40,229 bases of DNA from Bacteroidota bacterium (GTDB taxonomy: Bacteria > Bacteroidota > Bacteroidia > Flavobacteriales > Flavobacteriaceae): positions 1 through 40,229 of the forward strand of contig JAQCBK010000012.1 in assembly GCA_027621505.1 (NCBI GenBank), written 5' to 3'. The notes under the pieces were generated by a model. That model had not been told where the DNA came from. It did not search any database and worked only from the letters and a program-made list of their open reading frames with translations. Made by a program: the position numbers and the translations under genes. Shown here piece by piece: positions 12,301 through 32,848 of this stretch. Position 1 is the first letter of the stretch; the number at the start of each line of letters is the position of its first letter.

Positions 12301-14604
12301 TTATTTCACTTCTAACAAGTGATTTCCAGAGGGAAAGTTTTGGAGGTGAAAGCTCCCATTGTCAATATTTGCATTTAAGATGTTTCCATTCACGTAAAGT
12401 GACTTACTCCCTTTGGATGCGGGGATTTTAATATCTGCAACAACTCCACCAGGAATTTCTACTGTAAGGGAATATTTGTTTTCAGTTTGTTTGCACTCTA
12501 CCGCTACACTACCACTGATAAAACTTGTTTTTAGACGGGCAAATTCCAATTCTCCTATTTTGGGATGTATTTTAATATGTTGCGCACCAGGACTGATCGG
12601 TTCCACACCCATCATTTTTCTTACTATGATGTTGGCTGGTGCACCGCCCCAAGCGTGATTCAAGTCTAAATTGGGCTTGTAGCGCTTGTCCCAAGCTTCC
12701 ATGGTCATGGTTGATCCATATCGGATCATATTGTACCAGCTTCGCTCGGTTTTTGCTGCCATCAGTCCAATGGCATGTTGGTCTCCGCCATTATCAAATA
12801 ACCCTTCCAATAATATTTGAGAACCATAAACACTACAAGACATTTTTTTCTCACCAATGAAATCAACCACATTTTTGACATCTTTTTCTGGAATCAGACC
12901 GAAAGTCAAAGCAAACATATTGGCGTGTTGAGATTTGTGTGAGGTATCCTCTCCGTCATTGATCAGGCCATTGGTTGAATCTTGAAAGGTTTCTAAAAAA
13001 GCAACTTTAAGTCGCTCAGCTTGATCATTGTACAGGGCAACATCATCGCTTTTATTGAAGTCCTTCGCTATGTTCACCATTATTTTTAGTGCCCCATAGT
13101 ACAGTGAATTGACCACAGCGTTATAGGTTTGATAAACATATCCATCATTTTCTCCAGGATGTTCTTTTTCTGTCCCTTTAAAATGATCCAGGTTGTCATA
13201 ACCACCCGGGGGAGCGGCCTGTGGCCAGTCGACAATGTCTCTCAGATTGTTATTTTTTCCCCAATGGTTTTTGTGTAATTTTTTAAAAAAAGCTTCGGTT
13301 TGTTTGCCCGTTAACGTGCTGATCAGTCCCGTCTCGTCTGACAGATCCATGAGGGTTTTGATTTTCAGCTCGTCATAATATTTTAAGATAAATCGATTGT
13401 CACCAGTATAAAGGTAATCGTACCAAGCCATCAATATATTGTAAAGCGTCCACTCGGTGGGCCAGGTTGGGTTGAACAATAGATGCTTCATGCTCCCCCT
13501 CGCAAGGCCATACTCTGCATCCACGGCATAGTGGGAAAGTTGATTGATATAAGCATCAGCTTCATAAGGGATTCGCTCTCTGTCTCCGTCAACATAATAG
13601 CCACAGAAACTGGTAGCTTTCATGGAGTATTTACAAAGATCCCAAACCTGGTTTAAAACCTCATCACTTGAATCGAATGAGGAGGCAGTTTCATCAAAAG
13701 TATAGTTTACCATTGTTCTTACCACATCATCTGATTTCAACTCGCCTGTATAACCTTCAACTTGCAAATATCTGAAAGGATAAACTTCTCCAATGTAATC
13801 TGGCATTTGAATCATAAACCGGTTGCTGGCCCTTTTTTTGTTTTCAGGCCAATTGATTTCATACCAATGCGTTCCTGGTTTCAGTAAGAGTTGGCTTTGG
13901 TGATATCTTATGTTTTGTCCAGGTTTTGGATCGATTGAAAATTTATTTTTTTGCACCATTTCACCCACACTTATCAAAATGGTGTCTTCTTCGCTGGCGG
14001 TTAAAGCCAACTTGAGCTTGGCAAAAGCTGCTTTTTCGAAATCAATAAAATAACCCAGCTTTGTTTTCTTGACCATTTTCGGAGATTGATCAGTGGCAAT
14101 AAGGGGTTCTTGGGAAAATTTTTCATCGCTGGGATTGGGGGCAACAACAAATGCCTGGGGCTGGGAATAGCTTGATGTTTTCTCTTGTTCGTCCCAATAT
14201 CTTAGCTTCCAATGGTATACTTTGTTTCCCTCTAATTTTTTTCCTTGATAAAGGGTTGAAGCTTTTTGAGAGGATACCTTACCGCTATCCCATAGGTCTC
14301 CTTTGTTTTGATTCAATAAATCTGGATTACTGCTCACCAATAGCTGAAAAGCTGAGGTTTCCTTGGAACGATCATCCAATTTCCAATGAAAGATAGGGTT
14401 ATTGGATTGTACTATGGCGATCTCATATTGATTTTTGCTTAAAATGTCGTCATTCAAACCAAGGTCTTGTTTTTTTCCTTCCAATCCGACATAGTCGGGA
14501 TGACGCATCAAATCGGTGCGGAGGCCGGTGGGTTGAATAGGAGATTGGCAACTCAAAAACAGTGGAATTAAGATCCAAATCTTTAGATAATGTGAAATTT
14601 TCAT
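12301..14604 (-). CDS. GH78-like alpha-L-rhamnosidase lipoprotein
   Basis: A 767-residue protein with a lipoprotein signal (FLSC, lipid Cys19). Residues about 60-155 form a fibronectin-like N-terminal domain of bacterial rhamnosidases (FQLLVSSNPDLL, VYHWKLRYWDEQ). A beta-sandwich follows to about 300 (FRYLQVEGYTGEL), then an (alpha/alpha)6-barrel. The catalytic region DGDRERIPYEADAYINQ lies at 339-355, with WPTEWTLYNILMAWYDYLYTG next; in GH78 the acidic residues here supply the general acid. The C-terminal piece (GVEPISPGAQHIKIHPK, then GGVVADIKIPA) is the usual beta-sandwich. It should release terminal alpha-L-rhamnose, perhaps from an oligosaccharide already desulfated. Family placement is firm; specificity is inferred. 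It is the last gene of the minus arm, 203 bases after the phosphatase. Confidence 0.82.
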   Translation of the reverse strand: MKISHYLKIWILIPLFLSCQSPIQPTGLRTDLMRHPDYVGLEGKKQDLGLNDDILSKNQYEIAIVQSNNPIFHWKLDDRSKETSAFQLLVSSNPDLLNQNKGDLWDSGKVSSQKASTLYQGKKLEGNKVYHWKLRYWDEQEKTSSYSQPQAFVVAPNPSDEKFSQEPLIATDQSPKMVKKTKLGYFIDFEKAAFAKLKLALTASEEDTILISVGEMVQKNKFSIDPKPGQNIRYHQSQLLLKPGTHWYEINWPENKKRASNRFMIQMPDYIGEVYPFRYLQVEGYTGELKSDDVVRTMVNYTFDETASSFDSSDEVLNQVWDLCKYSMKATSFCGYYVDGDRERIPYEADAYINQLSHYAVDAEYGLARGSMKHLLFNPTWPTEWTLYNILMAWYDYLYTGDNRFILKYYDELKIKTLMDLSDETGLISTLTGKQTEAFFKKLHKNHWGKNNNLRDIVDWPQAAPPGGYDNLDHFKGTEKEHPGENDGYVYQTYNAVVNSLYYGALKIMVNIAKDFNKSDDVALYNDQAERLKVAFLETFQDSTNGLINDGEDTSHKSQHANMFALTFGLIPEKDVKNVVDFIGEKKMSCSVYGSQILLEGLFDNGGDQHAIGLMAAKTERSWYNMIRYGSTMTMEAWDKRYKPNLDLNHAWGGAPANIIVRKMMGVEPISPGAQHIKIHPKIGELEFARLKTSFISGSVAVECKQTENKYSLTVEIPGGVVADIKIPASKGSKSLYVNGNILNANIDNGSFHLQNFPSGNHLLEVK

Positions 14605-14807: not shown

Positions 14808-16130
14808 TTAGTCAATAAATCTGTTTTTACCCTTGGTTTTTTCTAACTCAAAACGATCAAACATTTCACCAGTAGCGGTAAATGATTTGTAAATCAATCG
14901 ATTTTCATCAATCGTTATGTGTTGAAACAACTGAGTTCGTTCTCCGGTTTTTTCTTTTGTGGCTCCAAATTCTCCCCAGCCAGACTCACTCAGGCTATAC
15001 ATCTTTCCTCCACTGACCGAGACCACATAAACCGGGCCTACAACATATTTTTCTTCTGTAATATTGTCTACTGCAATGGGGTTTTCATAGACGGCCCCTC
15101 GGGCATAACTGTGGTCGTGTCCTTGCAAAGCAAGATCAACACCGTATTGATCAAATATGGGTTTCCAATGTTTCCTGAGTTCCTCATTGTCCCGTCCTCT
15201 TGAAGCTGAAAAAACAGGGTGATGGTAGGTTACAACGGTCCACTTTTTGTCATTTTCCTCCAATACTTTTTTGAGCCATCCGGCTTGGAGTTCTATATCT
15301 CTATTACTGTTTAGTCCTATGACTTTAAGGTCTGGGTAATCAATAAAATAACAGGTTTCAAGCAGCTCCTCAGGTCCATTATTTGGGAGGCCAAACTGTG
15401 CGTTCCATTGCATGGAGAGTACTCTTTCCCCTTTGGGTGTGTTGGAGTCCATACTGCGGTATTCGTGATTTCCTGGAACTGCAATGGCAGGGATTTCACT
15501 GTGTATAAATCCTCCAGCATCAAACCACTCATTCCACTCACTTTCATCATGAGCATTGTTCACCAAATCACCCGCATGAATAAAAAAATCTGCTTCAGGG
15601 GCTTTTTTGTAGGCATTTCTGATCACTCTCGACCATAATTCTAAAATAAAATTCTGTGCATCTCCTACATATAAGAATGATAGGGGTGCGGTTTGGTCAT
15701 TGGCTGTAGTAAATTGGTGCCACTCACTTTTAAAATCATCATTTCCAACACGATATGCATACAGTGTATTGGGGCTCAAACTCTCAATTTGAACCTCAAA
15801 AAAAGAGGATTCAAAACCATCTGGTGTGGCGTTGGCAGAATTGATGAGTGTCCTTTTGGCAGTATGTGTCTTGCTGTTTTCCCTAAAATCAGGTCCCGGT
15901 CCAGCTGGAGCAATTTGAACATAGCCAACTTTATTGTCCGCATGGGTTCTCCAGTTGATGGCAATGGATCGCGCAGGATCTGAAGTAGCACTCAAAATTA
16001 CATGATCTGGAAAATGATTGGGAGCTGCCCATTCCTTAATGATTTCATTAAGTTGTTGTGATTTATCTTGACCAAAACCAAAAGAAAGGGTAAAGAAAAC
16101 CAACATCAAAGAGAAGATTGTTTTGATCAT
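14808..16130 (-). CDS. Purple-acid-phosphatase-like metallophosphoesterase (exported)
   Basis: A 440-residue protein with a signal peptide (IFSLMLVFFTLSFGFGQ). A fibronectin-like purple-acid-phosphatase N domain (about 40-143: ATSDPARSIAINWRT, LSPNTLYAYRVGND) precedes a metallophosphoesterase core with every metal motif: VGDAQN (Asp157), HAGDLVNN (Asp188), PGNHE (220-223), YHHP (302-305) and GHDHSYARG (337-345). The family hydrolyses phosphomonoesters or diesters in the periplasm. I chose the ATG at 16130 because it opens the signal peptide; an upstream in-frame ATG at 16310 would add 60 unlikely residues lying inside the neighbouring gene. It lies 88 bases after the DUF6807-DUF1080 gene. Its place among sulfatases suggests a phosphorylated or sulfated glycan substrate, or nucleotide scavenging; unproven. 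Confidence 0.85.
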   Translation of the reverse strand: MIKTIFSLMLVFFTLSFGFGQDKSQQLNEIIKEWAAPNHFPDHVILSATSDPARSIAINWRTHADNKVGYVQIAPAGPGPDFRENSKTHTAKRTLINSANATPDGFESSFFEVQIESLSPNTLYAYRVGNDDFKSEWHQFTTANDQTAPLSFLYVGDAQNFILELWSRVIRNAYKKAPEADFFIHAGDLVNNAHDESEWNEWFDAGGFIHSEIPAIAVPGNHEYRSMDSNTPKGERVLSMQWNAQFGLPNNGPEELLETCYFIDYPDLKVIGLNSNRDIELQAGWLKKVLEENDKKWTVVTYHHPVFSASRGRDNEELRKHWKPIFDQYGVDLALQGHDHSYARGAVYENPIAVDNITEEKYVVGPVYVVSVSGGKMYSLSESGWGEFGATKEKTGERTQLFQHITIDENRLIYKSFTATGEMFDRFELEKTKGKNRFID

Positions 16131-16218: not shown

Positions 16219-17796
16219 TTAGAAACTTGCAATATCGATCGACTTGTACCATATTTCCATGTCTCTATTGCCGTGCAGTTGAAGACCAACAGGCCCTGAT
16301 AAATTGGCATTTTCCATAATGTAGTCCATCACTTGTTTTCCGTTGAGCCATACACGATAACGGTTGCCGATTGCTTCGGCTTCCATTTTGTTCCAACCCT
16401 CCAGTTTGAGAAGTGATGCTGCTAAGGTGGCTTCTTTTGGATATCCTTGTTTGGGGACATATGGAGAGCCAGTCATGTCTCTTTTAAGCGAACCCGAAAT
16501 TCCAATTTGAATTTGAGGATTGCTGGCATCGTCACCACGCATAAAAATCCCCGAGTCGACTGTGCCTGGGCCAAATTTAAATTTTAAACGAACGCGGAAG
16601 TTACCAAAGCTGTCTTTGGTCCATAGGGTTGATCCTTTTTGTTCAGGACCGCTTTTGACTTTTAATATTTTATCTTCAACAGACCACCATATATTGTTTT
16701 CTGGTATAATCCACTGATCCAAATTACTACCGTCAAAATAACTTGTGTACTCTTTGGCGACCAAAGAAAATTTATTGATTTCCTTTGGATTTAAAACGGA
16801 ACCATTGTGAATGAGCATTCTGTAATGAAAGCTCACGGATTCACCGTTTTTCAACGCGAAATTTAAGGCTTCTTTTCCTTCAGAGAAAACCGCTTGCCCT
16901 AAGGGATTGGCAGAGAACAGACCATAGTCTCTGGCATGCCAATAGGTTGGATATCCCACATTATTGGGGTGGTCCATAATGGTAATGGATACCGGTTCTC
17001 CATCTATGGTGCTGTAAAGTTTTACCCATTCGGCACGAGTCCCCCAAACATCGTTCCCCTCGATTCCCTCGCTGCTGAGGTAATTTCCATTGACTCCAGT
17101 ATTGTCCAATACCTTTACCTCTGTAGGGTTGCCTTGTGCATCGACAAAAATAGCCGGTTTTTTCGCGGGCAACTCCATGGCTCGGGTAACACGAACACCA
17201 AATACACCCTCTTTGTTGTCCTTAAAAGAAATATCTTGAAGTGCTTTTAGCGTGGTGTATCGATCAATGACTCGGGTTTTGCCTTCTTGAGAAAATTTAA
17301 AGACCGTAGTCTCCTCCAACATGGATTCACCAGCAGTGCTTTGCCAACTACTTCTGGTAGTCAAACTTCCATTTTGCTGATCAATCTTGACGATCTCGTT
17401 GTGTACAATTTTACCATAATCCTTTAATTTCTCCTTTGGGATGGCATGTGAGTTGTTCCAAAAATCAAGTCCATTAACATCACCATAGTTGAACCAATGC
17501 CCCATATGATGCGGATGATCCACGCGTTCCCCTGGTTTGGGATCAATAGGAAAACCTCTTGTTAAGGTTTTACCACTGGTGGTCACCAAGGGAAAAAGCA
17601 CTGGTTTTGGTAATGTTGCTTCATAATGATAACTGCTGAATAGAGACCCATTGAGTAGGACGTCAATTTTTTGATTGGGCTGATCGTTAACAAAAACAAC
17701 CGAAGGACTTTCTCCTCCGGTTTTTTTGGTTTGTCCCTCGCACGAAATCATACTGATGCCTAGGATAAAGATTATAATAAAAACCCTTCTCATCAC
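16219..17796 (-). CDS. DUF6807 (PmoA-like) - DUF1080 fusion lipoprotein
   Basis: A 525-residue lipoprotein (signal ending SMISC) with two domains. Residues about 30-340 are a DUF6807/PmoA-like beta-rich domain: PVLFPLVTTSGKTLTRGFPI, then VDHPHHMGHWFNYGDVNGLD with the conserved HPHHMG. Residues about 350-525 are a DUF1080 (3-keto-disaccharide hydrolase-type, jelly-roll) domain: SYFDGSNLDQWI, SGIFMRGDD, EGWNKMEAEAIGNRYRVWLN. DUF1080 proteins of gut Bacteroides have been reported to cleave 3-keto-glycosides by elimination (from memory of that work). The gene starts 6 bases after the stop of the Tat-type Gfo/Idh/MocA oxidoreductase, the kind of enzyme that would make the 3-keto sugar. Confidence 0.82.
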   Translation of the reverse strand: MMRRVFIIIFILGISMISCEGQTKKTGGESPSVVFVNDQPNQKIDVLLNGSLFSSYHYEATLPKPVLFPLVTTSGKTLTRGFPIDPKPGERVDHPHHMGHWFNYGDVNGLDFWNNSHAIPKEKLKDYGKIVHNEIVKIDQQNGSLTTRSSWQSTAGESMLEETTVFKFSQEGKTRVIDRYTTLKALQDISFKDNKEGVFGVRVTRAMELPAKKPAIFVDAQGNPTEVKVLDNTGVNGNYLSSEGIEGNDVWGTRAEWVKLYSTIDGEPVSITIMDHPNNVGYPTYWHARDYGLFSANPLGQAVFSEGKEALNFALKNGESVSFHYRMLIHNGSVLNPKEINKFSLVAKEYTSYFDGSNLDQWIIPENNIWWSVEDKILKVKSGPEQKGSTLWTKDSFGNFRVRLKFKFGPGTVDSGIFMRGDDASNPQIQIGISGSLKRDMTGSPYVPKQGYPKEATLAASLLKLEGWNKMEAEAIGNRYRVWLNGKQVMDYIMENANLSGPVGLQLHGNRDMEIWYKSIDIASF

Positions 17797-17802
17797 ACTG
17801 TA

Positions 17803-19185
17803 TTAATATTTAAATACTTTACCGCCTGCCAAAACTTCTTGATTTTCAACATCAAAAGTGGCCTTAAGTCCTGTTCTCATTGATGCTGTAGTCATGATGT
17901 TGGCGATGGAATGGTTGTAACCCGCCTCTACAGGTGCGTTGGTTTTTTCTCTGGAACGGATACATTCCAACCAGTTCAACATATGGTTGGAGGTCATGTT
18001 ATCCACACCGGTATTGGCCGAGGTAACGACTTCTGTATTAATTTCTGAAAGTGAGAATTCATCCAAAAGATTGGGTTTCATATTCATTGAACTTGAGTGA
18101 CGTTCTACAAGTCCACCGTTGGGAGTTACTTTGTTGGTTTTCATGTTCAACTCACCTCCATTTGAATAATAAATTTCTTTGGTTCCCCCTGCAGAGTTGG
18201 TAAATCGAGAGGAATATACCACTTGGAAACCTGTGGTGGTATCCTCCAGAGGTCCATAATCAAAAACAGCTGTCATGGTATCGAAATTCGTGCGGCCATC
18301 TTTCCAAAGATAGATTCCGCCGTTGGCGGCTACACTTCTGGGGTGATCCAAACCTGAGAACCAGTGAACAGTATCAATCTGGTGGGCCATCCACTGTCCA
18401 GGAATCCCAGATGAAAATGGCCAAAACAATCGGTATTCCAAATATTTTCTAGGATCCCATTTTTCATAGGGCCGATTCATTAAATACCGTTTCCAATCCA
18501 CATCCGATTCTTTGATGTCACTTACAGCATTGGGATACACCCTCCATCTTCCAGGTTGGTTGACATTCCAAGTCATTTCGACCATGACAACATCACCGAA
18601 AGCACCGGATTTGATGTACTTTTCCGCGGCATGGTAATTTTTTCCGCTTCTGCGTTGGGAGCCCACTTGAAGAACAATACCAGCTTCATTGGCCGCTTTT
18701 TTACCCAATCTGGCATCTTCCATGGTCTCTGCAAAAGGCTTTTCTACATAAACATCTTTTTTGGCATTTGCCGCTTGGACTGTATGCAAAGCATGCTGGA
18801 AGTCTGCAGTTGAAATGATGACGGCGTCAATTTCATTTTTGTCATACATTTCCTCATTGTTTCTCCAGGTTTTAATTGGGTTGCCTGTTTTTTCCTCAAG
18901 GAAAGCTTTTCCTTCGTCTCTTCTTCTGTTCCAAATGTCTGAAACGCCAACTATTCTGCAATTCTGTTGTTTGGAGTGGGCTAGAAAAGCAGGAATTAAT
19001 GATCCTTTTGCACGGTTTGAAAAACCAACAATTCCTACATTGAGTCGATCGTTAGCACCAATAATTCTTCTGTAACTTGCTGCGCTCACAGCACTACTGG
19101 CTGCACTTACACCACTTACCCCAGCAATGACACCTGCAGAGGCAAGGGAGGCTTCTTTGATAAATTTTCTTCGGTTTAAATCCAT
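17803..19185 (-). CDS. Tat-exported Gfo/Idh/MocA oxidoreductase
   Basis: A 460-residue protein with a twin-arginine signal (NRRKFIKEASLASAGVIAG). The Rossmann domain follows (NVGIVGFSNRAKGSL), with IDAVIISTADFQHALH and the family hallmark VYVEKPFAETMEDARLG. The C-terminal domain includes GQWMAHQIDTVHWFSGLDHP, where the His residues are candidates for catalysis. Gfo/Idh/MocA enzymes oxidise or reduce sugar hydroxyls with tightly held NAD(P); some (GH109-type) use NAD for glycoside cleavage. Tat export fits folding with cofactor before secretion. Immediately upstream of the DUF1080 fusion gene, it is a good candidate for making 3-keto sugars in the periplasm (inference). A palindromic motif lies 36 bases before its start. 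Confidence 0.88.
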   Translation of the reverse strand: MDLNRRKFIKEASLASAGVIAGVSGVSAASSAVSAASYRRIIGANDRLNVGIVGFSNRAKGSLIPAFLAHSKQQNCRIVGVSDIWNRRRDEGKAFLEEKTGNPIKTWRNNEEMYDKNEIDAVIISTADFQHALHTVQAANAKKDVYVEKPFAETMEDARLGKKAANEAGIVLQVGSQRRSGKNYHAAEKYIKSGAFGDVVMVEMTWNVNQPGRWRVYPNAVSDIKESDVDWKRYLMNRPYEKWDPRKYLEYRLFWPFSSGIPGQWMAHQIDTVHWFSGLDHPRSVAANGGIYLWKDGRTNFDTMTAVFDYGPLEDTTTGFQVVYSSRFTNSAGGTKEIYYSNGGELNMKTNKVTPNGGLVERHSSSMNMKPNLLDEFSLSEINTEVVTSANTGVDNMTSNHMLNWLECIRSREKTNAPVEAGYNHSIANIMTTASMRTGLKATFDVENQEVLAGGKVFKY

Positions 19186-19220
19186 GATGATGTTGTTTTA
19201 ATATTGTTGTTCTATTTATA

Positions 19221-19238
19221 GTGTGCGTAAACGAACAT
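19221..19238 (-). promoter_or_regulatory. Candidate operator, copy A
   Basis: In the minus direction it reads ATGTTCGTTTACGCACAC. Positions 3-16 form the imperfect palindrome GTnCGTnnACGnAC. It lies 35 bases before the oxidoreductase ATG and matches 14 of 18 bases of a second site before the first gene of the minus arm (25740-25757). Such palindromes are typical of LacI- or GntR-type operators, and a LacI-type gene lies at the right end of the window. Found by eye. Confidence 0.4.
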
Positions 19239-19320
19239 ACCAATCAAAAATAATTTTTTTTTTGATAACACAGCCTTTTTTCTAACATTTAGTAAAATAA
19301 TTGCTGCTAATCCTATCGGT

Positions 19321-21201
19321 TTATCTGACCTCATTATCCGTTCCCCTGAGTTGGTTTAATCCATGATTGAGTACCCTTGCCACATATTTATTGTAATCCG
19401 TTTTGATCAACTCTTGTGCTTTGTCTTCCAATGTTTTCATCACTTCACTAAAATCATCCAAAACCAAGGCGGTCTGAAGACGGGTCCATTCGTTATCACT
19501 CTCAAGTCCACGGACCAATGTATTGATGATTTGTTTGGATGAATGTTGGTTTTTGAGTAGCGCTCGTGCTGCACTTATTCCGACGTTGATGATGGAATCA
19601 TTTAGTTTTTTGTGAAGTCTCTCTACAGTGAAATCGCTGATTTCCTGATCCAAGTTGTATAATCCTTGTCCCGCCCAATATCGAACGGCTTCATTGGGAT
19701 GATTCAAACCTTCATACAAAAAGTCTTCATTTTCCGATGATGACATTTGAATTAAAATTTCATAAAAATCACCTTGTTTTCTTATCCAATCGTATATGGG
19801 CTGACCGCTCTTTTCCTCCCAATTTCTCATTATAGGCTCGGGAATTAATCCCACGTCTTTGGTTTTTATCATCCATTGATCGTGAACCTCCCTCAAGCGT
19901 TTTAGTTGGTTCATTTGATTGGGGTCGTTAGACAAGTCATTCAATTCCAATGGATCTGTATGCAAATCGAACAAAGATTCTTTGGGTTTTGTAAGGGATA
20001 CCAATTGAAGTGCCTCGGGACTGAGGGCTCCATTCTTTTCAGCCTTTCTTAATTCGGTCATCAAAGGCCCTTTTTCCGGGGTATTCATGTATTGAATAAA
20101 CGATTTTTTGGGCTCATAGTATCTCAAATATTTATAACGTTTTGTTCTTACTCCCCTTTGCATGTCGTAACGTTCATCCATTCTTCCTCGGGCAATAAAA
20201 ACGTATTCTCGTTCTGTTTTTAAATCTTTTCCTAAAAAGGCCTGACCTTGCATATTGGATGGGATTTGTGCCCCTGCAAGATGCAAAGCAGTGGGAGCCA
20301 GGTCAACAAAACTGACCAATTGATCGACTTCGTCACCGGGTTGACTTGGATAAAGAGATTGAAATTTTTCTGGAATGTAAACGATCAATGGCACTTTTAC
20401 GCCTGTATCAAACAACCATCTTTTGTGTCTCGGTAATCCTGTACCGTGGTCAGAATAAAAGAAAACAATCGTATTTTCAAGCTCTCCAGCTTCATCAAGT
20501 TCCTTGAGTATGCTTGCCACCTTGCGATCCATGGTAGCGATATTGTCGTAATGTCGAGCCAGTAATGTCCTAATGGTGGGGGTGTCTGGATAATAGGGTG
20601 GAACCGCGACCATATCAGGATTTGTTCTGAGAGCAGTGGGTAGGTCTTGGGTGAGCCTGTCATGTTTTTCTTTATTATTGATACAACTCTCATGGGTCAT
20701 GGTGAGGTTAAATATTGAAAAAAAAGGGGTCTGTGAATTGGGTCTGTTTTTCCAGTGGGCATTTTTGCTGGATTCATCCCAAATATTTCTTTTCAAGTCA
20801 AAATTATAATCCTCTTTGCTGTTGTTGGTACAGTAATAACCGGCGGCTCTTAAAAGCTCGGGGTACATTTGAATGTGATCAGGAACTCTACCGGAGCTTT
20901 TCATTTCCTTAGAGAAAGACCGCATATGGAGTGTTCCAAGTGCTGAGGGATACATTCCGGTAATGATGGCGTTTCGTGCCGGAGCACAAACAGGAGCGTT
21001 GGCGATGGCATTACTGTATCGAAAGCCTTTGGACGCCAAATCATCCAAGGCTGGAGTTTGAGCCAATGGGTCGCCGTAGCAACCTAGATCAGGGCTAATG
21101 TCTTCCACAGTAATCCATAGAATATTTGGAGGATGGGATGAAACGTCCAAGCAGCCGTTAAGCCCAAATCCTATTAGTAGACTGAAGAAGTATTTCCTCA
21201 T
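19321..21201 (-). CDS. Sulfatase (S1 family, heparan-sulfatase-like) with C-terminal HEAT-like tail
   Basis: A 626-residue lipoprotein-type sulfatase (signal with GFGLNGC). The formylglycine motif is VCAPARNAIITG with Cys72, to be matured to formylglycine. Metal-binding residues begin in ITVEDISPDLG (Glu-Asp in place of the common Asp-Asp). NNSKEDYNF replaces the usual GKWHLG, TMTHES supplies the substrate-site His, and FFYSDHGTGLPRH the distal metal site. After about residue 480, helical repeats appear (NHPNEAVRYWAGQGL, GISAARALLKN, WTRLQTALVLDD), resembling HEAT repeats. It hydrolyses sulfate esters or N-sulfates of a glycan in the periplasm. Its start overlaps the GH28-like gene's stop by 4 bases (ATGA), so the two are coupled. 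Confidence 0.87.
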   Translation of the reverse strand: MRKYFFSLLIGFGLNGCLDVSSHPPNILWITVEDISPDLGCYGDPLAQTPALDDLASKGFRYSNAIANAPVCAPARNAIITGMYPSALGTLHMRSFSKEMKSSGRVPDHIQMYPELLRAAGYYCTNNSKEDYNFDLKRNIWDESSKNAHWKNRPNSQTPFFSIFNLTMTHESCINNKEKHDRLTQDLPTALRTNPDMVAVPPYYPDTPTIRTLLARHYDNIATMDRKVASILKELDEAGELENTIVFFYSDHGTGLPRHKRWLFDTGVKVPLIVYIPEKFQSLYPSQPGDEVDQLVSFVDLAPTALHLAGAQIPSNMQGQAFLGKDLKTEREYVFIARGRMDERYDMQRGVRTKRYKYLRYYEPKKSFIQYMNTPEKGPLMTELRKAEKNGALSPEALQLVSLTKPKESLFDLHTDPLELNDLSNDPNQMNQLKRLREVHDQWMIKTKDVGLIPEPIMRNWEEKSGQPIYDWIRKQGDFYEILIQMSSSENEDFLYEGLNHPNEAVRYWAGQGLYNLDQEISDFTVERLHKKLNDSIINVGISAARALLKNQHSSKQIINTLVRGLESDNEWTRLQTALVLDDFSEVMKTLEDKAQELIKTDYNKYVARVLNHGLNQLRGTDNEVR

Positions 21202-22766
21202 TTTAATTCGATTCCCGAATTTTTTCCTATGATTTCAACCTCTTTATCCGTCATGATTTTGATGTTTTTTACATCTTTAACAACGATCTGTTTGGGGTAT
21301 CCTTCGCCTTTTATCTGTAGGGCTGATAAATTTGAATTATTTACATCATCCAAGACAATTGAGGGTCTATAATCCGCTTCCTTGGCTTCAAGCCTAATGT
21401 TTTTTAAATTAAGACCTGACACATGTCTTACGTACAACCCCCAAGCTGGTAATTCCCCAAACATACTGAACTCGGGGTAACTTTCTTTATTTTCGGGTAC
21501 TCCCTCCATACGCCATGTAGGCATATTGGCATAGGCTTGATTTCCACCTCCAGGATATCTGATAACTACATTTTCAATACTGACATTTTTTACATAATAT
21601 CCTGGAATACCAGTGATCGAAGAAGGGAATTTATTGTGAAAGAAAGGCAACATGGGTCCTCTGATTTCATAATCTTTGTCGGGAATCTCTTTAGGGACAG
21701 TTACATCAATATTTTTGATCTCTACATTTTGCAAACTCCCTACAACACCGGGTGCATTTCGGTGCCCCAATTTTATAAAAATAGCATTTCCCGTGTTAAC
21801 AGCTTTGATATTACTCACTTTTACACCATCTATAAAGCCCCCATCTACGGCCTCTAAGGCAATCGCAGATCGATAGGTGTCGTAGATATTTAGATTATTT
21901 AATTCAATATTTTTGAATCCTCCATGGGAGGCGGTACCGAATTTTACAGCACTGGCACTGGATCTGATTTTGCAGTTGGAAACGTAGATGTTTTCGCAAT
22001 AAGAGAACTTATGATGTGATTTAAAACATATGGCATCATCTGCAGCATTGATGTCGCTATTGGTAATTCGCACATTTTTACTGTCGACTAAATCTATTCC
22101 GTCATTATTCCAATAAACATCACTTTCCAATTTTATGTTATCGATTACTACCGAGTCACAAAGCTCGATTCGTGTGACCCATTCTGCACCATTTTTTAAG
22201 GTAACACCTTTAATTTGTATGTTTTTGGATTGATTTAAAAAAATAAGGTTGGGTCTTCCTCCTTCGTTGGGTCTTTTTCTTCTTTCGTTATAACTCCTTG
22301 AGATTTTGAAATAAGAGTCTGGATCTGCATAGTACAGACTGTCCAAAGCCAAAGCCAAATATCCTCCCTGACCATTGACCGTTCCGTAGCCGGTAATTTT
22401 GACGTTATTTCTTAAATGAGCACTGATTAATGCTGTATTGTGGCGGGTCGATAGGGTGTCCTTTGAGACTACTTTTTTATAATCAAAAGGATTTTTACTA
22501 CCCAATAAAACTGCTCCTGCTTCAAAATAAAGCTCAATTTCGTCCTTAAGTTCAATGCTCCCGCTCAGAAATTTTCCAGCGGGAAAAATAATTTTTCCTC
22601 CCCCATTCTTACTCACTTGATCGATCAAATTTTGAATGTTCTCTGTGTTTAGTGTTTTGGCATCTCCGATAATTCCATAATCGGTCACCAAATAATCAGA
22701 TTGGTAGGAGGTTTTAAATGATAATAAGATCAATACTAGACTAAGAAAAATGAATTTTGGATTCAT
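21198..22766 (-). CDS. GH28-like right-handed beta-helix glycosidase
   Basis: A 522-residue protein with a signal peptide (IFLSLVLILLSFKTSYQ) and the N-terminal pectinase pattern VTDYGIIGDAKTLNTENIQN then GGGKIIFPAGKFLSGSI. The parallel beta-helix has the GH28 acid residues: NNDGID (220-225; Asp222) and AADDAICFK (Asp243, Asp244). The canonical GHG motif is SHG (280-282), and the RIK motif appears as FIK. GH28 enzymes hydrolyse alpha-galacturonosyl or related linkages; exo-action on an oligosaccharide is likely. I chose 22766 because it opens the signal peptide; an in-frame ATG at 22814 would add 16 residues overlapping the previous gene. Downstream sulfatase overlaps by 4 bases. Confidence 0.82.
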   Translation of the reverse strand: MNPKFIFLSLVLILLSFKTSYQSDYLVTDYGIIGDAKTLNTENIQNLIDQVSKNGGGKIIFPAGKFLSGSIELKDEIELYFEAGAVLLGSKNPFDYKKVVSKDTLSTRHNTALISAHLRNNVKITGYGTVNGQGGYLALALDSLYYADPDSYFKISRSYNERRKRPNEGGRPNLIFLNQSKNIQIKGVTLKNGAEWVTRIELCDSVVIDNIKLESDVYWNNDGIDLVDSKNVRITNSDINAADDAICFKSHHKFSYCENIYVSNCKIRSSASAVKFGTASHGGFKNIELNNLNIYDTYRSAIALEAVDGGFIDGVKVSNIKAVNTGNAIFIKLGHRNAPGVVGSLQNVEIKNIDVTVPKEIPDKDYEIRGPMLPFFHNKFPSSITGIPGYYVKNVSIENVVIRYPGGGNQAYANMPTWRMEGVPENKESYPEFSMFGELPAWGLYVRHVSGLNLKNIRLEAKEADYRPSIVLDDVNNSNLSALQIKGEGYPKQIVVKDVKNIKIMTDKEVEIIGKNSGIELK

Positions 22767-22786
22767 TATTTTATAAATTTTATGCT

Positions 22787-24340
22787 CTATTTTATTTCGA
22801 ATTGTTTTGCCCATTCGTGGTAATGTTTTTTGAGTTCCTCAGCTTTTTCAGGTTCCTCTTGCATCAAATTTTTTTCCTCAACAGGATCTGTTTCCAAATT
22901 ATACAACTCCCAGTCGTTATTATAAGCAACCATTTTCCAGTTACCCTCCCTTACAGCTTTTCCACGATTCCATTGCCAAAAGAGGGGAGTATCCCTTCGT
23001 TCTGATTCATCTCCGAGTAATTGGGGTAAAAAACTTACTCCGGGACTGGGGAGGATGTCCGTTCCCTTGAATTTTTTTGGATACTGAGCTTGTATAACCT
23101 CTTGAAGGGTGGGGAGGAAGTCAATAAAATGAACTGGCAAGTGAGATACACCCCCTTTATTTTTTATTTTTTCCGGCCAGTGAGCGATAAGGGGGGTTTT
23201 GATGCCTCCCTCGTGGCTCCAATTTTTATATTGTCTGTAGGGAGTATTGCTCACATTGGCCCAATTTTTACCCAAAGATTTCCAATTTGTCAATTCTCCG
23301 ATTTTTCCAACTCCATTGGAGATACTTACCACTTCACTTGATCCACCGTTATCTGAGGCGAAGAGAATGAGCGTGTTATTGAGTTTTCCTTGTTTTTTAA
23401 GTAGTTCTAATACCCTCCCTACGTTTTGATCCAATCGATCTATCATGGCAGCATAGACAGCCATAGTTCTACTTTCTTCTTCACGTTCTTGGTCAGTAAG
23501 TGTGTTCCAAGGGGGGTGTTCTGCCTTGGACAACTTTGCGTTTTTAGGAAGAATCCCTAATTGTTGTTGTTTTTTAAACCTTTGCTTTCGGATGACTTCA
23601 TAGCCTTCGGTATATCGATTTTTGTATTTCTCTATGTCTTCAGGCCAAGCCATCAAAGGGTCATGGGGGGCCGTGTAGGAGAGGTATAGAAAAAATGGCT
23701 TATTGGATTTTACATCATTCAACCATGCCAAGGCATAATCGGTAAAAACATCGGTAGTGTAAAAGTCTTTAGACTTGGGCGTATAGGGATTGAATACTTC
23801 ACCTTCGATGACCCAATTCCTGTAGGTGACGTTTGATTTTTTTAAGCCCTTTTGTGCAGGTTGACCTTCTCCGGTCCGCCGAAGTCCGGGGTTAAAATGA
23901 TTTGCCGCTCCGTCCAGCAATCCGCTGTAGTGATCAAAACCTCTTTCAACAGGGTTTTCTCTGCTGTGGTGTTTTCCCGACCAAAGGGTTGTATATCCTT
24001 TTGATTGAAACAACTCCCCCAAAGTAATGGCATTGCGCATGGGTTGACTAAAGCTCTCGTGGTAACCGGTTTGTTGAGAATAAAGACCAGTTATCAAGCA
24101 GGCTCGGGAAGGAAAACACTTGGAGGTATTGTAGGCGTTGGTAAACCTAAGGCCATTAAATGCCAACCGATCAAGATGAGGGGTAGCGATCTCACTCCCA
24201 TAAGAACCCAAATCCGAATAACCCATGTCGTCAACCAAGATAAGGATGACATTGGGTGGATTTTCCAAACTGGAATTTTCTTTAAAACCACTTAAAGAAA
24301 AGGCTATGATTAAAACATAACCAAATATTTTAGAATTCAC
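22787..24340 (-). CDS. Sulfatase (S1 family, arylsulfatase A-like)
   Basis: A 517-residue exported sulfatase (hydrophobic N terminus, IFGYVLIIAFSLSGF). Metal-site LVDDMGYSDLGSYG at 36-48 and formylglycine motif KCFPSRACLITG with Cys75. LWSGKHHSRENP replaces GKWHLG but keeps the Lys and a His; YTAPHDPL carries the substrate His and LFASDNGGSS the distal metal site. It removes a sulfate ester from a glycan in the periplasm; which position is not readable. It overlaps the tandem-DUF1080 gene by 11 bases and is 20 bases before the GH28-like gene, so the three should be one transcript. Confidence 0.87.
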   Translation of the reverse strand: MNSKIFGYVLIIAFSLSGFKENSSLENPPNVILILVDDMGYSDLGSYGSEIATPHLDRLAFNGLRFTNAYNTSKCFPSRACLITGLYSQQTGYHESFSQPMRNAITLGELFQSKGYTTLWSGKHHSRENPVERGFDHYSGLLDGAANHFNPGLRRTGEGQPAQKGLKKSNVTYRNWVIEGEVFNPYTPKSKDFYTTDVFTDYALAWLNDVKSNKPFFLYLSYTAPHDPLMAWPEDIEKYKNRYTEGYEVIRKQRFKKQQQLGILPKNAKLSKAEHPPWNTLTDQEREEESRTMAVYAAMIDRLDQNVGRVLELLKKQGKLNNTLILFASDNGGSSEVVSISNGVGKIGELTNWKSLGKNWANVSNTPYRQYKNWSHEGGIKTPLIAHWPEKIKNKGGVSHLPVHFIDFLPTLQEVIQAQYPKKFKGTDILPSPGVSFLPQLLGDESERRDTPLFWQWNRGKAVREGNWKMVAYNNDWELYNLETDPVEEKNLMQEEPEKAEELKKHYHEWAKQFEIK

Positions 24341-25718
24341 GAATTTTTATGTTCTTAAAGTAAACATCTCCTGGACTGTGGTCTTGAAGCAAAATTCTTC
24401 CACTGGATCCCATTCCAAATCCTTTGTGTTTTGAATACTTGCTCTTTTTAATCAGATTTTTCATGCTTTGTGAAAATCTATCGTATTCAACTACTTTGAT
24501 GTTATTGATCCAGTGTTGTACTTTTCCTCCATTGACAACGATTCTCGCTCTGTTCCATTTTTCTGCTCCACTGGCTCTAATGCTTCCGCCATTTTTCTCC
24601 GAGAGGTTTTCGGCAGTAATGAGATCGTACAAAGAGCCGATGGTTCTGTTACCGTCCATTCCCTTGCTGTGATCGGGATGGGCCTTGTCCAATATTTGGT
24701 ATTCAAATCCTATGCTCCTGCCATCGCCTTCTTCTAATGCATCGACAAAATATTTGATGCCGCTATTACTCCCTTTTTGGAACATGAAATCGACTTCCAA
24801 TTCAAAGTTGTCGAATTTTTCCTCGGTAACGATGTCCCCCGATTTTTTTGAATCTTTGGTGCTTTCGTGTTTTAAAAAGTGCAGCGTTCCATCAACGATT
24901 TCGATCCCGTGTTTTGGGAATTCAGCAGATTGGGCACCTTTCCAACCTTTGGAAGTTTTCCCATCCCATAGCAGTCTCCAACCTTTTCGTTTTTCCTCTG
25001 GGGTAAGTCTATTGGTCAAATAGGAGATTTGTCTGGCGTTGGGCTGGTTTTTTGTTTGGTATTGCTCGAGATTTTCAGTGAGGATTTTGATATTTTTCCA
25101 TTGGATGGTTTTTCCCTCTTGCGACTTATCTCGGATGGAATGTACTTGCAAGGCGATAAAGCCTTCGGAAGTCATATCATCCACCAAATTAGCACATTGC
25201 ACCCCATTCATGAAAGTTTTAATCGTGTTTCCGATGGCTTCAATTCTCACTTTGTTCCAATCCCCATTTCTGAAAGCATCTCCCCCTTTGGTATTAATGG
25301 TAAGGGGATACAGCCAGCCTCGGCGACCTTCGTCATAGATACCTGCAGACCATTTTCTGTTGCTGGTGTCCAACTCTGACTGATAGCCGTGTACCCGCCC
25401 ATTTTGATACTCTTTCATTGAATTGGATCGAAATTGGATTCCCGAATTGAGTCCCGGTGAAACCATTACTTCTAACTCAAGGATAAAATCACTGTACATC
25501 TTTTGAGTACACAAAAAAGTATTGGGGGTTCCAGTTTCGGAGGTTCCAACTATTGCACCATTTTCAATGTGATATTTGGCATTTCCGTTTTTTACTTCCC
25601 AACCGGATAAATTTTCTCCATCAAAAAGAGAGGTCCACTGGGATTGAGCTACCAACGGCATGAAAAAAATAACAATGCAGTTGAACGGTTGTTTAAAAAA
25701 GTTAAATTTGGTTTTCAT
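24330..25718 (-). CDS. Tandem DUF1080 protein (3-keto-disaccharide hydrolase type)
   Basis: A 462-residue exported protein (signal ending MPLVAQSQ) made of two DUF1080 jelly-roll domains. The first spans about 28-215 (WTSLFDGENLSGWEV, LNSGIQFRSNS, GDWNKVRIEAIGNTI). The second spans about 245-462 (WRLLWDGKTSKGWKG, GSNSGIKYFVDA, EKWNRARIVVNGGKVQHWIN). The repeated SLFDGxxLSGW / LNSGIxFR / xWNxxRI pattern shows internal duplication. Members act on 3-keto-glycosides in gut Bacteroides (recalled family knowledge), working after a Gfo/Idh/MocA oxidoreductase. It is the first gene of the minus arm, downstream of a good promoter and of a shared palindromic motif. Confidence 0.85.
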   Translation of the reverse strand: MKTKFNFFKQPFNCIVIFFMPLVAQSQWTSLFDGENLSGWEVKNGNAKYHIENGAIVGTSETGTPNTFLCTQKMYSDFILELEVMVSPGLNSGIQFRSNSMKEYQNGRVHGYQSELDTSNRKWSAGIYDEGRRGWLYPLTINTKGGDAFRNGDWNKVRIEAIGNTIKTFMNGVQCANLVDDMTSEGFIALQVHSIRDKSQEGKTIQWKNIKILTENLEQYQTKNQPNARQISYLTNRLTPEEKRKGWRLLWDGKTSKGWKGAQSAEFPKHGIEIVDGTLHFLKHESTKDSKKSGDIVTEEKFDNFELEVDFMFQKGSNSGIKYFVDALEEGDGRSIGFEYQILDKAHPDHSKGMDGNRTIGSLYDLITAENLSEKNGGSIRASGAEKWNRARIVVNGGKVQHWINNIKVVEYDRFSQSMKNLIKKSKYSKHKGFGMGSSGRILLQDHSPGDVYFKNIKIREF

Positions 25719-25795: not shown

Positions 25796-27340
25796 ATGAG
25801 ACACTGCTACATTATTTTCTTGACTTTAATAGTTTTGGGCTGCACAAATCCCACCACTGAAAAAAAGGAGCAGCGTCCAAATATTATCTTTGTAATGTCT
25901 GACGATCACACCAGCCAAGCATGGGGCATATACGGTGGGGTTCTTGAAAACTACGCCATTAATCAAAATATCAAACGTTTGGCCACTGAAGGGGTGGTAT
26001 TGGAGAATGCTTTTTGCACCAACTCCATCTGTGTACCCAGTCGTGCTTCCATACTCACAGGTCAATACAGTCACAACAACCAAGTATACACCCTTACCGA
26101 TGCCCTCGACCCCAATCGGCAAAATGTAGCTCAACTCATTCAAAAATCAGGCTACCAAACTGCCCTTATCGGAAAGTGGCATTTAAAAGACAAACCCTCT
26201 GGTTTTGATTTTTTCAACATATTACCGGGACAGGGCAGGTATAACAATCCGATTTTAAAAAACAATGACAATTGGGAATACGGGAATAAAGGTGGAAAGC
26301 CCTACGATGGATTTTCCTCCGATGTTATCATGGATGAATCTCTCAAGTGGTTGGATCAAAGAGATAAAGAAAAACCCTTTATGCTGATGACCCATTTTAA
26401 AGCTACCCACGAACCCTTTGACTATCCCGAAAGATTCAAAAATTTATTTGAAAACGACACCATACCCGAGCCTGTTTCACTACTCGATTTTGATCCCCAA
26501 AATTCGGGGAGAAGCTTTGAAGGGCAAATTCTTGAAATTTTGGCAGAACGATGGCGGCAAGCCTCGATTAAAAACAAAGGCAACTACCCCGGACTTCCTT
26601 TTGATACCGATGGATTGGATGCAGTTCAGTCAAGGAAAAAAACCTATCAAAAGTTTGTCAAAGACTTCATGAAGTCTGCTGCTGCCATTGATGACAACAT
26701 AGGGCGGCTATTGGACTATCTCGATCAAAACAATCTTTCACAGAATACCGTAATCATTTACACCTCCGATCAGGGATATTTTTTGGGGGAGCATGGAATG
26801 TTCGACAAGCGCATGTTTTTGGAAGAATCCGCGAGGATGCCATTTGTCATTCGTTATCCTAAAGAATTACCTGCGGGGAAAAGAGTAAAGGACATCATAC
26901 TGAATATCGACTTTCCCTCTCTGCTTTTGGACTATGCGAACATTTCGCAGCCAGAGGAATTCCAGGGCGAGAGTTTTCGTAAAAACCTCATCATGGAAAC
27001 TCCCGATCAATGGAGGGATAAGATGTATTATCGTTATTATGCTCATGCACCCAATCGACCCGCGCATTTGGGGATACGGACAGATCGCCACAAACTGATT
27101 TTTTATTATGGTCTTTCATTGGGACTCAATGGAACTTACACCGATGAAGCGACCCCTCCTGCATGGGAGTTTTACGATTTGGAAAATGATCCGATGGAAC
27201 TCAAAAATCAATACCAAAACCCCAAGTACAAAACCATTATTCAGCAATTAAAAAAGGATTTGATTGGGTTGAGAGAAAACTATGGAGATGCTGCGACTGA
27301 TGGTGCTGAGATGAAAAAGGTAATACAGGATAATTGGTGA
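25796..27340 (+). CDS. Sulfatase (S1 family) lipoprotein
   Basis: A 514-residue lipoprotein (VLGC, lipid Cys16). Metal motif VMSDDHTSQAWG at 34-43 and formylglycine motif ICVPSRASILTG with Cys79, then TALIGKWHLKDKP, FKATHEPFD and the distal site YTSDQGYFLGEHGMFDKRM. The last stretch and ESARMPFVIRYP are typical of the iduronate-2-/GlcNAc-6-/choline-sulfatase-like branch. It would desulfate a glycan in the periplasm. First gene of the plus arm, divergent from the tandem-DUF1080 gene with 77 bases between starts. Confidence 0.88.
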   Translation: MRHCYIIFLTLIVLGCTNPTTEKKEQRPNIIFVMSDDHTSQAWGIYGGVLENYAINQNIKRLATEGVVLENAFCTNSICVPSRASILTGQYSHNNQVYTLTDALDPNRQNVAQLIQKSGYQTALIGKWHLKDKPSGFDFFNILPGQGRYNNPILKNNDNWEYGNKGGKPYDGFSSDVIMDESLKWLDQRDKEKPFMLMTHFKATHEPFDYPERFKNLFENDTIPEPVSLLDFDPQNSGRSFEGQILEILAERWRQASIKNKGNYPGLPFDTDGLDAVQSRKKTYQKFVKDFMKSAAAIDDNIGRLLDYLDQNNLSQNTVIIYTSDQGYFLGEHGMFDKRMFLEESARMPFVIRYPKELPAGKRVKDIILNIDFPSLLLDYANISQPEEFQGESFRKNLIMETPDQWRDKMYYRYYAHAPNRPAHLGIRTDRHKLIFYYGLSLGLNGTYTDEATPPAWEFYDLENDPMELKNQYQNPKYKTIIQQLKKDLIGLRENYGDAATDGAEMKKVIQDNW

Positions 27341-30383: not shown

Positions 30384-31406
30384 GTGGGAAAAAAAATCGG
30401 ATTTGGAGTTATTGGGACGGGTAACATCGCCAAATTCCATGCGGATTGCATCGAAAAAATACCCAATGCACGCCTTTGGGGGGTATTGAGTAAATCCGAG
30501 ACCCGATCCCTTCAAGTAAAGGAAGATTACAATGCCCCTGTTTTTTGGGAAATGGATCAATTACTCTCCCACCCTGAAATAGATATTATTTGCGTTTGCA
30601 ACGAAAGCGGATTGCATGGAGCGACCATTGCCAAAATCGCAAAATCGGGCAAACATATACTTTGCGAAAAACCATTAGAGACCACGGTAGAAAAAATCGA
30701 ACAAATTGCTAAGGTCGTAAAATCCAGCGGAATCCAATTGGGCTGTGTCTTTCAAAACCGGGAGAACCCGGAATATAAAAAGCTTAAAAATTTTGTAGAA
30801 ACAGGGGTTCTGGGTAAAATATTACTGTGTCAAACCAGTATCAACTGGTACCGTTCCCCTGATTATTATAAGGACTCTTGGCGGGGTATACTGGCCATGG
30901 ACGGTGGGGCTGCCCTTATCAACCAAGGCATTCATACCATTGACCTGATGCTCGATCTAATGGGAGAGGTCGTTCAGGTCAGCGGAATTGTCAACACCCT
31001 GTTTCACCAAATCGAAGGAGAAGATGTCGCAGTAGCTGCCTTACAATTTGAGAGTGGTGCATTGGGTACGCTCTCTGCTGGTACTGCTCTTTTTCCCGGG
31101 GAACCCGAGTCGATTACCATTTATGGTACACTGGGGAATATTGTTTTCAAGGGAGGAAAAATTACTTCTTCAACCGTTAACTCCCTGAATCAAGCATTGA
31201 ACAATACCATTGAAGTTTATGGTTCCGGTGCTTCTGATCCCATGGCCATTAGCGATCAATTTCACAGGGCTGCCATAGAGGACATGATGGATGCGGTGAT
31301 AAATAACCACCCTCCAAAAGTAAACATAGATCAAGCCAAAAAGTCCATTGCACTGATCAACGCTATTTATCAGTCGAAGGGAGACAGAACAAAACCAAAA
31401 AAATAA
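30384..31406 (+). CDS. Cytoplasmic Gfo/Idh/MocA oxidoreductase
   Basis: A 340-residue protein with no export signal: a Rossmann loop (FGVIGTGNIAKFHADC), then IDIICVCNESGLHGATI and the hallmark LCEKPLETTVEKIEQ, and the second domain with AMDGGAALINQGIHTIDLMLD. It would oxidise or reduce a sugar or sugar acid with NAD(P) in the cytoplasm. The start is GTG at 30384, 5 bases after the GH92 stop, with no ATG in frame before the Rossmann strand. With the Tat-exported homologue in the other arm, it could be the reducing partner that regenerates a normal sugar from a 3-keto product (inference). Confidence 0.87.
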   Translation: MGKKIGFGVIGTGNIAKFHADCIEKIPNARLWGVLSKSETRSLQVKEDYNAPVFWEMDQLLSHPEIDIICVCNESGLHGATIAKIAKSGKHILCEKPLETTVEKIEQIAKVVKSSGIQLGCVFQNRENPEYKKLKNFVETGVLGKILLCQTSINWYRSPDYYKDSWRGILAMDGGAALINQGIHTIDLMLDLMGEVVQVSGIVNTLFHQIEGEDVAVAALQFESGALGTLSAGTALFPGEPESITIYGTLGNIVFKGGKITSSTVNSLNQALNNTIEVYGSGASDPMAISDQFHRAAIEDMMDAVINNHPPKVNIDQAKKSIALINAIYQSKGDRTKPKK

Positions 31407-32762: not shown

Positions 32763-32848
32763 TGGTTGCAAACCAGCAAAATCGTCAATATAACCAAGCT
32801 CTTTTTCAGCAACCGAAATTTAAAAATGTGGAGCATCAATTAAAATCA

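Follow-up and report, generated by a model that had tools for sequence, protein, structure and literature searches.

The window analysed here, i.e. the whole stretch of 40,229 nt, corresponds to the entire contig JAQCBK010000012.1. The genome is 1.85 Mb in size, is estimated as 86% complete and belongs to a marine, uncultured genus of the Flavobacteriaceae. Its minus arm carries a protein with two DUF1080 domains in tandem, a twin-arginine (Tat)-type oxidoreductase of the Gfo/Idh/MocA kind (hereafter TatGFO) and a DUF6807-DUF1080 fusion, with sulfatase genes interleaved (Table 1). As judged from sequence, there is an even chance that this arm encodes a periplasmic module cleaving uronic-acid glycosides by C3 oxidation and elimination (3-keto-glycoside chemistry), joined here with sulfatases. 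The module as such is real and conserved; 3-keto chemistry is known, the combination of tandem DUF1080, DUF6807 and sulfatases is new, and the uronic-acid substrate hypothesis, also new, is well supported but unproved.

The gene block and its proteins

The Pfam domain scan, which covered 20 window proteins, bore out the inventory given in a preliminary description of this DNA: three DUF1080 domains (the tandem protein and the DUF6807 fusion), a Gfo/Idh/MocA oxidoreductase just upstream of the fusion (6 bp gap; NAD-binding fold PF01408, 64.7 bits) with the Tat-like motif RRKFI, a second, cytoplasmic one on the plus arm, and seven sulfatases, each with a PF00884 match and a C-x-[PA]-x-R motif. 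The same description had the locus lack endo-enzymes and hydrolases partly replaced. It overlooked a GH28 gene within the very block it described, and GH92 and GH78-like genes lie beside the module, so that the absence of hydrolases is no feature of the locus and their replacement is undercut.

Concerning the DUF1080 proteins, the family (PF06439) is already labelled '3-keto-disaccharide hydrolase' in Pfam. Its relatives in the PDB include 8rr2 and 9fbe, titled '3-keto-glycoside eliminase/hydratase', as well as 8tda (B. thetaiotaomicron) and 8v31 (Alistipes), titled '3-keto-2-hydroxy-glucal-hydratase'; the alignment listed for 8rr2 is the one for 3osd, titled BT2157. Since DUF1080 was thus already tied to 3-keto-glycoside elimination and hydration, the idea put forward in the preliminary description is not new in kind. 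The tandem protein matches PDB entry 4jqt (BT3469, titled 'putative glycosyl hydrolase') over its full length with 482 bits; literature searches found no function for 4jqt, and BT3469 is called hypothetical in the available text of PMC6560043.

The residues of the DUF1080 active site had been named earlier as the point on which the idea could fail. In the alignment, Q-x-H is retained in every protein, namely in both domains of 42/42 tandem proteins and in 28/28 single or fused ones, so that the idea does not fail on this point. The histidine of this motif (QDH) is residue 250 of the 8rr2 chain and, assuming an offset of 25, would be the H275 of PMC13273386. That paper divides the pathway into four steps (oxidation, elimination, hydration, then reduction) and reports that the lyase variant H275N is without hydration. 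In the second domain of the tandem protein, N318, S319, G320, E339, Q341, D344, H347, D349, Y364, D365, Q445 and H447 are invariant (42/42) and D446 is retained in 40/42; its closest function-assigned solved relative is the hydratase 8v31. In the first domain, the invariant residues (42/42) are N91, S92, G93, Q113, E115, Q191 and H193, and the middle segment differs from that of domain 2. By eye, domains 1 and 3 (the latter that of the fusion) are without the E-x-Q...H-P-D set shared by domain 2 and the B. thetaiotaomicron-type enzymes, and these residues are not general among the 28 single or fused proteins. Close resemblance to a known eliminase/hydratase is therefore confined to domain 2, and the activity of domains 1 and 3 may be a different one.

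As for TatGFO, its best NCBIfam match is the glycoside 3-dehydrogenase family BT_2158_fam, named after BT2158, for which a periplasmic glycoside 3-dehydrogenase role has been described (PMC11300592). The score is 96.5 bits, the family's cut-off being 750; TatGFO is accordingly a distant relative and not a member of that family, and orthology to BT2158 was rejected. Its best PDB matches are 8tdh and 8tdf, and glucose-fructose oxidoreductase is also found among the profile matches. An EKP lysine motif is present in 92 of 93 aligned TatGFO rows and a loose twin-arginine pattern in 93/93, with one row (L144) being a wrong open reading frame (ORF) in both counts. TatGFO is also the best-kept gene of the block within the genus, with 86-92% identity vs. 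56-81% for the tandem protein. The best PDB match of the cytoplasmic Gfo/Idh/MocA protein is 3q2k (132 bits), and it also matches the P2B11 glucuronide-3-dehydrogenase 8tdi (66 bits), a precedent for a Gfo/Idh/MocA enzyme named for glucuronide C3 oxidation; 8tdi is not among the listed matches of TatGFO.

No sequence match to the DUF6807 domain was found in the PDB at E 1. Its model (mean pLDDT 91.9) retrieved galactose mutarotase and GH36 enzymes among the best 50 Foldseek rows, with E values of 1e-6 to 6e-4 and probabilities of up to 1.00, although the query TM-scores are just 0.27-0.47. The model suggests, tentatively, a galactose-mutarotase-like supersandwich. Residues D64, H65, P66, H67, H258 and R260 are invariant in 38 sequences, which suggests that DUF6807 has an active site. 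A single protein joins DUF6807 and DUF1080 in the window, in nine loci of the genus (L074-L082, some from the same genomes as the G-numbered genus-mates), in L089 and in L097, but the genus-mates G004 and G012 encode DUF6807 separately. In the Maribacter clade of the TatGFO tree, the unfused L098 groups with the fused L097 and L089, which suggests repeated fusion or fission of DUF6807 and DUF1080 and a common function.

Table 1. Genes of the 40,229-nt window, with the module and its interleaved genes first, and the basis of each assignment.
Feature	Coordinates	Strand	Basis
Tandem DUF1080 (PF06439 x2), signal-peptide-like start; proposed 3-keto-glycoside eliminase/hydratase	24330..25718	-	Pfam 286.5 bits, two stretches
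S1 sulfatase S1b, motif CFPSR	22787..24340	-	Pfam PF00884; best PDB match 7all, 297 bits
GH28 hydrolase	21198..22814	-	Pfam 65.8 bits; NCBIfam; synteny
S1 sulfatase S1a, C-terminal HEAT repeats, motif CAPAR, lipobox	19321..21201	-	Pfam PF00884
TatGFO, Tat-type Gfo/Idh/MocA oxidoreductase; proposed glycoside C3 dehydrogenase	17803..19185	-	Pfam; Tat-like motif; NCBIfam; PDB
DUF6807-DUF1080 fusion, lipobox	16219..17796	-	Pfam: DUF6807 260.3 bits, PF06439 107.5 bits
Purple-acid-phosphatase-like metallophosphatase, following the fusion in the block across the genus	14808..16130	-	Pfam; synteny
GH78-like alpha-L-rhamnosidase, lipobox	12301..14604	-	Pfam
S1 sulfatase S1c, opening the plus arm, motif CVPSR	25796..27340	+	Pfam PF00884
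GH92 hydrolase	28000..30378	+	Pfam
Cytoplasmic Gfo/Idh/MocA oxidoreductase; candidate reductase	30384..31406	+	Pfam; PDB matches
S1 sulfatase S1d, motif CTPSR	31416..32762	+	Pfam PF00884
S1 sulfatase S1e	32762..34219	+	Pfam PF00884; best PDB match 6prm carrageenan sulfatase, 196 bits
S1 sulfatase S1f, motif CTPTR	34195..35730	+	Pfam PF00884
S1 sulfatase S1g, motif CSPSR	35727..37280	+	Pfam PF00884
LacI-type regulator, truncated by the contig end; only the sugar-binding part in Pfam	39249..40229	-	Pfam

Concerning the remaining genes, two of the seven sulfatases (S1b and S1e) were compared with the PDB, and the matches are mixed as to subfamily. The best NCBIfam match of the GH28 protein is the rhamnogalacturonidase BT4146 (256 bits, below the cut-off of 500), and both exo and endo action may be considered for it. 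GH92 is the sole match at E 1e-20 in its own 86%-complete genome. The listed metallophosphatase ORF (14808-16310, minus strand) opens inside the fusion gene, and its start is likely near 16130. No SusC/SusD match was found among the 20 scanned proteins, for which reason a Sus-type locus was rejected, and the same scan gave no polysaccharide lyase family, ulvan lyase or GH88/GH105.

Conservation of the module and probable later insertion of the sulfatases

Within the genus, TatGFO was detected in 10 of the 12 genus-mates searched, eight of which cover the block fully (G009 and G001 are cut by contig ends). In 8/8 of these, the order tandem DUF1080, sulfatase, (GH28), sulfatase, TatGFO, DUF6807/DUF1080 and phosphatase is retained; GH28 stands between the two sulfatases in three of the nine covering genomes (the window, G010 and G002) and is absent from the other six. 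From the tandem gene to TatGFO, the genes of the window lie on one strand and overlap or are at most 135 bp apart, which suggests that the interleaved sulfatases are co-transcribed with the module.

At the phylum level, TatGFO was found in 18 of 296 sampled genomes, the window genome included. For the locus comparison, 17 loci from this sample and 80 from named genomes (among the matches listed) were brought together and, after removal of four same-contig duplicates, yielded 93 loci, of which 84 lie outside and nine inside the window's genus. According to tblastn, 67 of the 84 outside loci have DUF1080 or DUF6807 at most 300 bp from TatGFO; this number rises to 71 for a distance of 2 kb and to 74 for 10 kb. 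In the genus, all nine loci have one of the two at no more than 300 bp. An ORF-based count agrees, with 65/84 within one gene and 71/84 within four genes (the L144 anchor being wrong there).

Sixteen loci are Maribacter-, Arenibacter- or Ulvibacterium-like (L084-L098 and L100). The succession tandem DUF1080, TatGFO, DUF6807, DUF1080 and then LacI is found in 11 of them; among the 16, DUF6807 and the last DUF1080 are fused in L089 and L097, and DUF6807 is missing in L086, L087 and L096. SusD and SusC often follow downstream of the module in Maribacter-type loci. The LacI fragment of the window itself resembles the terminal LacI gene of the Maribacter and Arenibacter operons (up to 129 bits).

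Fourteen of the 84 outside loci have a PF01261 TIM barrel no more than one gene away from TatGFO, half of these (7/14) from Algoriphagus. In the Algoriphagus-type loci (L059, L060, L109, L113-L117, L122, L125 and L126), a PF01261-like TIM barrel stands ahead of TatGFO and DUF6807 comes after it, and DUF1080 was not found in the stretch examined around them. TatGFO relatives also occur in Verrucomicrobiota (L111, L143 and L144), L111 adjoining a sulfatase and a TIM barrel. Of the 117 operon neighbours, 91 were scanned by Pfam; the other 26 are for the most part recurrent LacI genes or short proteins. A glucuronyl-esterase-like family was found in 3/91, and a CE15 motif scan of the loci found none. 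The ApbE family is likewise present in 3/91, and in L062 an ApbE flavin-transferase (10890-11801) directly follows TatGFO. In L063, the ORF listed just before a tandem DUF1080-TatGFO pair, on its upstream side, encodes a PQQ-dependent dehydrogenase with a cytochrome domain (12806-14965).

The sulfatases behave differently from the rest of the module. By tblastn, a sulfatase lies within 300 bp of TatGFO in 9/9 genus loci vs. 2/84 outside, and within 5 kb in 4/84 outside; the two adjoining cases, L101 (Saprospiraceae) and L111 (Puniceicoccaceae), were both confirmed by Pfam. Sulfatases were therefore rejected as part of the core module. In the TatGFO tree, rooted for drawing only and with a wrong ORF in its L144 row, the genus forms a single clade (10 rows, support 100) within a clade of 29 rows (support 98), inside which a sulfatase at most two genes away is found only in the window's genus. 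The insertion is thus most simply derived, and the sulfatases look like a later addition to an older operon.

Association with hexuronate catabolism

UxaC (glucuronate isomerase), UxuA or UxaA was found in 11 of the 84 outside loci, the stretch examined being at most 10 kb on either side. Several of the search sequences originated in loci that they matched (L091, L094, L096, L103 and L108), where UxaC, UxuA and UxaA were identified by Pfam. In L096, TatGFO is followed by UxaC, a PfkB kinase, a presumed aldolase of 221 aa, a TRAP-like trio, a mannitol-dehydrogenase-like (UxaB-like) protein and UxaA; in L096 and L103, genes were labelled TRAP or KdgA on the basis of size and family counts. G095 and G213, two genomes with a TatGFO that falls next to Algoriphagus in the tree, carry their tandem DUF1080 gene in a separate hexuronate locus: these SusCD loci (L157 and L158) hold the tandem protein, a second Tat-type Gfo/Idh/MocA protein, UxaC, a UxuB-like protein and UxuA, and L159 and L160 have related gene sets. 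In the window's own genome, contig C24 (L161) carries together a UxaC gene truncated where the contig stops, UxuA, a D-mannonate oxidoreductase (375 bits, over the cut-off of 281), a Gfo/Idh/MocA protein and a sugar porter.

Across the phylum sample, 17/18 TatGFO genomes encode UxaC vs. 65/115 other DUF1080 genomes. For the tandem protein the contrast is 54/55 tandem genomes vs. 28/78 DUF1080 genomes in which no tandem match was found (Fisher 3e-15, a statistic that ignores phylogeny). The breakdown by family spans 14 families, with UxaC in tandem vs. other genomes amounting to 7/7 vs. 8/16 (f1), 8/8 vs. 0/1 (f11), 4/4 vs. 0/1 (f12), 5/5 vs. 0/2 (f15), 9/9 vs. 5/13 (f30) and 2/2 vs. 1/2 (f23). 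Of the tandem genes, 6/55 have UxaC at a distance of at most 10 kb and 10/55 at a distance of at most 50 kb, compared with 0/99 single DUF1080 genes at the latter distance (77 from 113 rows and 22 from 25 added rows, among the matches listed).

Proposed pathway and alternative explanations

Gene content, export-type signals, conserved residues, the linkage across Bacteroidota, the interleaving of sulfatases in this genus and the association of the tandem DUF1080 with hexuronate genes are observations; all reactions of the pathway that we propose below, the sugar they act on, their sequence and the export itself are inferred. The sulfatases would strip sulfate esters, leaving the C3 hydroxyl of the sugar free, and together with the rhamnosidase-like enzyme would expose a terminal hexuronic acid. 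TatGFO, exported in folded form with its nicotinamide cofactor, would oxidise C3 of this non-reducing-end glucuronic or galacturonic acid, and DUF1080 would then eliminate the oxidised residue. DUF6807, as a galactose-mutarotase-like partner of DUF1080, might handle the released keto-sugar or an intermediate. Finally, a Gfo/Idh/MocA reductase would regenerate the hexuronate, which could enter UxaC, UxuA and UxuB, encoded on contig C24. The presence of GH92 and GH28 may allow a glucuronomannan- or rhamnogalacturonan-like polymer.

The BT2156-BT2160-type pathway, which needs a xylose-isomerase-like TIM barrel (PF01261), is similar in having an exported Gfo/Idh/MocA dehydrogenase, a DUF1080 eliminase/hydratase and a further Gfo/Idh/MocA protein nearby. 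This 3-keto-glycoside pathway was reportedly described by Nasseri et al. (2024, Nature). The window differs from it by a distant TatGFO, the added tandem DUF1080 and DUF6807, the interleaved sulfatases and the lack of any PF01261 TIM barrel among the 20 scanned proteins, and the module by its hexuronate linkage. In Caulobacter and Pedobacter, lactose is handled by a LacABC-DUF1080 pathway (PMC9007349), which shares a periplasmic oxidation followed by a DUF1080 protein, but the dehydrogenase is LacABC and the substrate lactose instead of uronides. In ulvan breakdown, terminal saturated uronic acids require special enzymes, either GH3 or a dehydratase plus GH105 (PMC8511951). The ulvan oligosaccharide dehydratase P29_PDnc of Formosa agariphila likewise acts non-hydrolytically on such residues after sulfatase and GH78; its pathway differs in relying on cofactor-independent dehydration and GH105, and Gfo/Idh/MocA, DUF1080 and DUF6807 are not named in the available text of that source (PMC8511951).

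Several observations weigh against uronic-acid cleavage by this route. Domains 1 and 3 are without the residue set of domain 2, and TatGFO falls far below the BT_2158_fam cut-off. Eight of the 84 outside loci have neither DUF1080, DUF6807 nor TIM barrel, a contig end being close in L099, L101, L123 and L129 and not so in L068, L119, L130 and L139. The window holds no hexuronate gene, and 73/84 outside loci have no UxaC, UxuA or UxaA in the stretch examined; genome G141 has TatGFO and the tandem protein without UxaC. The UxaC statistics, besides ignoring phylogeny, rest on a tandem search limited to five scored candidates in each genome, and there is no contrast in f17 (1/1 each) and f37 (1/1 vs. 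2/2). Moreover, the GH28, GH92 and GH78-like enzymes alone could do the work. As a whole, the original observation is partly confirmed and its interpretation partly supported: family evidence for DUF1080 and the linkage of TatGFO to DUF1080/DUF6807 speak for oxidation and elimination, only domain 2 being closely eliminase/hydratase-like, and the co-occurrence that had been suggested for survey is widely conserved for DUF1080/DUF6807 and TatGFO but rarely includes sulfatases outside the genus.

A first alternative, unlikely in our view, is a broad-specificity 3-keto pathway for neutral glycosides, similar to BT2156-BT2160, with hexuronate genes nearby merely through a diet of plant or algal polymers. 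For the named homologues, activity has been reported on trehalose, leucrose and palatinose (PMC11300592) and possibly on lactose (PMC9007349), which counts against a uronic-acid substrate, as does the scarcity of hexuronate genes around TatGFO. Tandem genomes also carry the control enzyme AraA (L-arabinose isomerase) more often than the other DUF1080 genomes do (31/55 vs. 17/78). However, UxaC follows the tandem protein even in AraA-negative genomes (23/24 vs. 13/61), while AraA does not differ among UxaC-positive ones (31/54 tandem vs. 15/28 other), and UxaC is found near some tandem genes and, among the matches listed, near no single DUF1080 gene.

Rather improbable is a second alternative, in which TatGFO would be a lone enzyme of the glucose-fructose-oxidoreductase or GH109 kind and the DUF1080 and DUF6807 domains would simply hydrolyse or bind sugars in the usual way, with no 3-keto elimination. 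It could draw on the glucose-fructose oxidoreductase among the TatGFO profile matches and on the residues that domains 1 and 3 lack. The structure 2ixa, presumably that of a GH109 enzyme, is however not among the listed PDB matches of TatGFO, the closest function-assigned relative of domain 2 is a 3-keto-2-hydroxy-glucal hydratase, and the close DUF1080-TatGFO linkage suits a pair that oxidises and then eliminates. For the same alternative speaks a DUF1080 protein of Thermogutta, reported to be an endo-xanthanase of GH16-like structure (PMC10881899).

Just as hard to credit, if not more so, is an ordinary sulfated-polysaccharide locus of the ulvan kind, degraded by sulfatases, rhamnosidase and GH92 with the redox module as a passenger for an unrelated substrate: the GH78-like and sulfatase genes do resemble an ulvan degradation set (PMC8511951), 80/84 outside loci carry the module without a sulfatase within 5 kb and another contig of the genome (C94) holds one gene of the GH88/GH105 family, but two sulfatase genes stand between the tandem gene and TatGFO in 8/8 covering genus-mates, their spacing in the window suggests co-transcription, and the scanned window proteins include neither polysaccharide lyase nor GH88/GH105.

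Returning to the uronic-acid module, a wider and more tentative proposal, to which we give somewhat less than even confidence, is that tandem DUF1080, TatGFO and DUF6807 form a 3-keto branch dedicated to hexuronides in Bacteroidota and some Verrucomicrobiota, with DUF6807 as a new mutarotase-fold component acting on the 3-keto-hexuronate or glycal, and that this branch merged with sulfatases in one marine Flavobacteriaceae genus. If true, tandem DUF1080 proteins would gain a substrate class and DUF6807 a fold and a pathway. Redox cleavage would enter the breakdown of marine sulfated polysaccharides, where terminal uronic acids need special enzymes, as a third route for their removal besides hydrolases and the dehydratase/GH105 pair. 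It would also provide a simple rule, namely that a tandem DUF1080 protein predicts growth on uronic-acid glycosides.

On the plus arm, a short ORF with a Tat-like start (27507-27848, 113 aa) looks broken when compared with its homologues in the genus-mates G007 (at least 359 aa), G004 (at least 347 aa) and G012 (at least 281 aa), each of which is cut by a sequence end; the G007 homologue has a weak match, below the cut-off, to the enolase superfamily.

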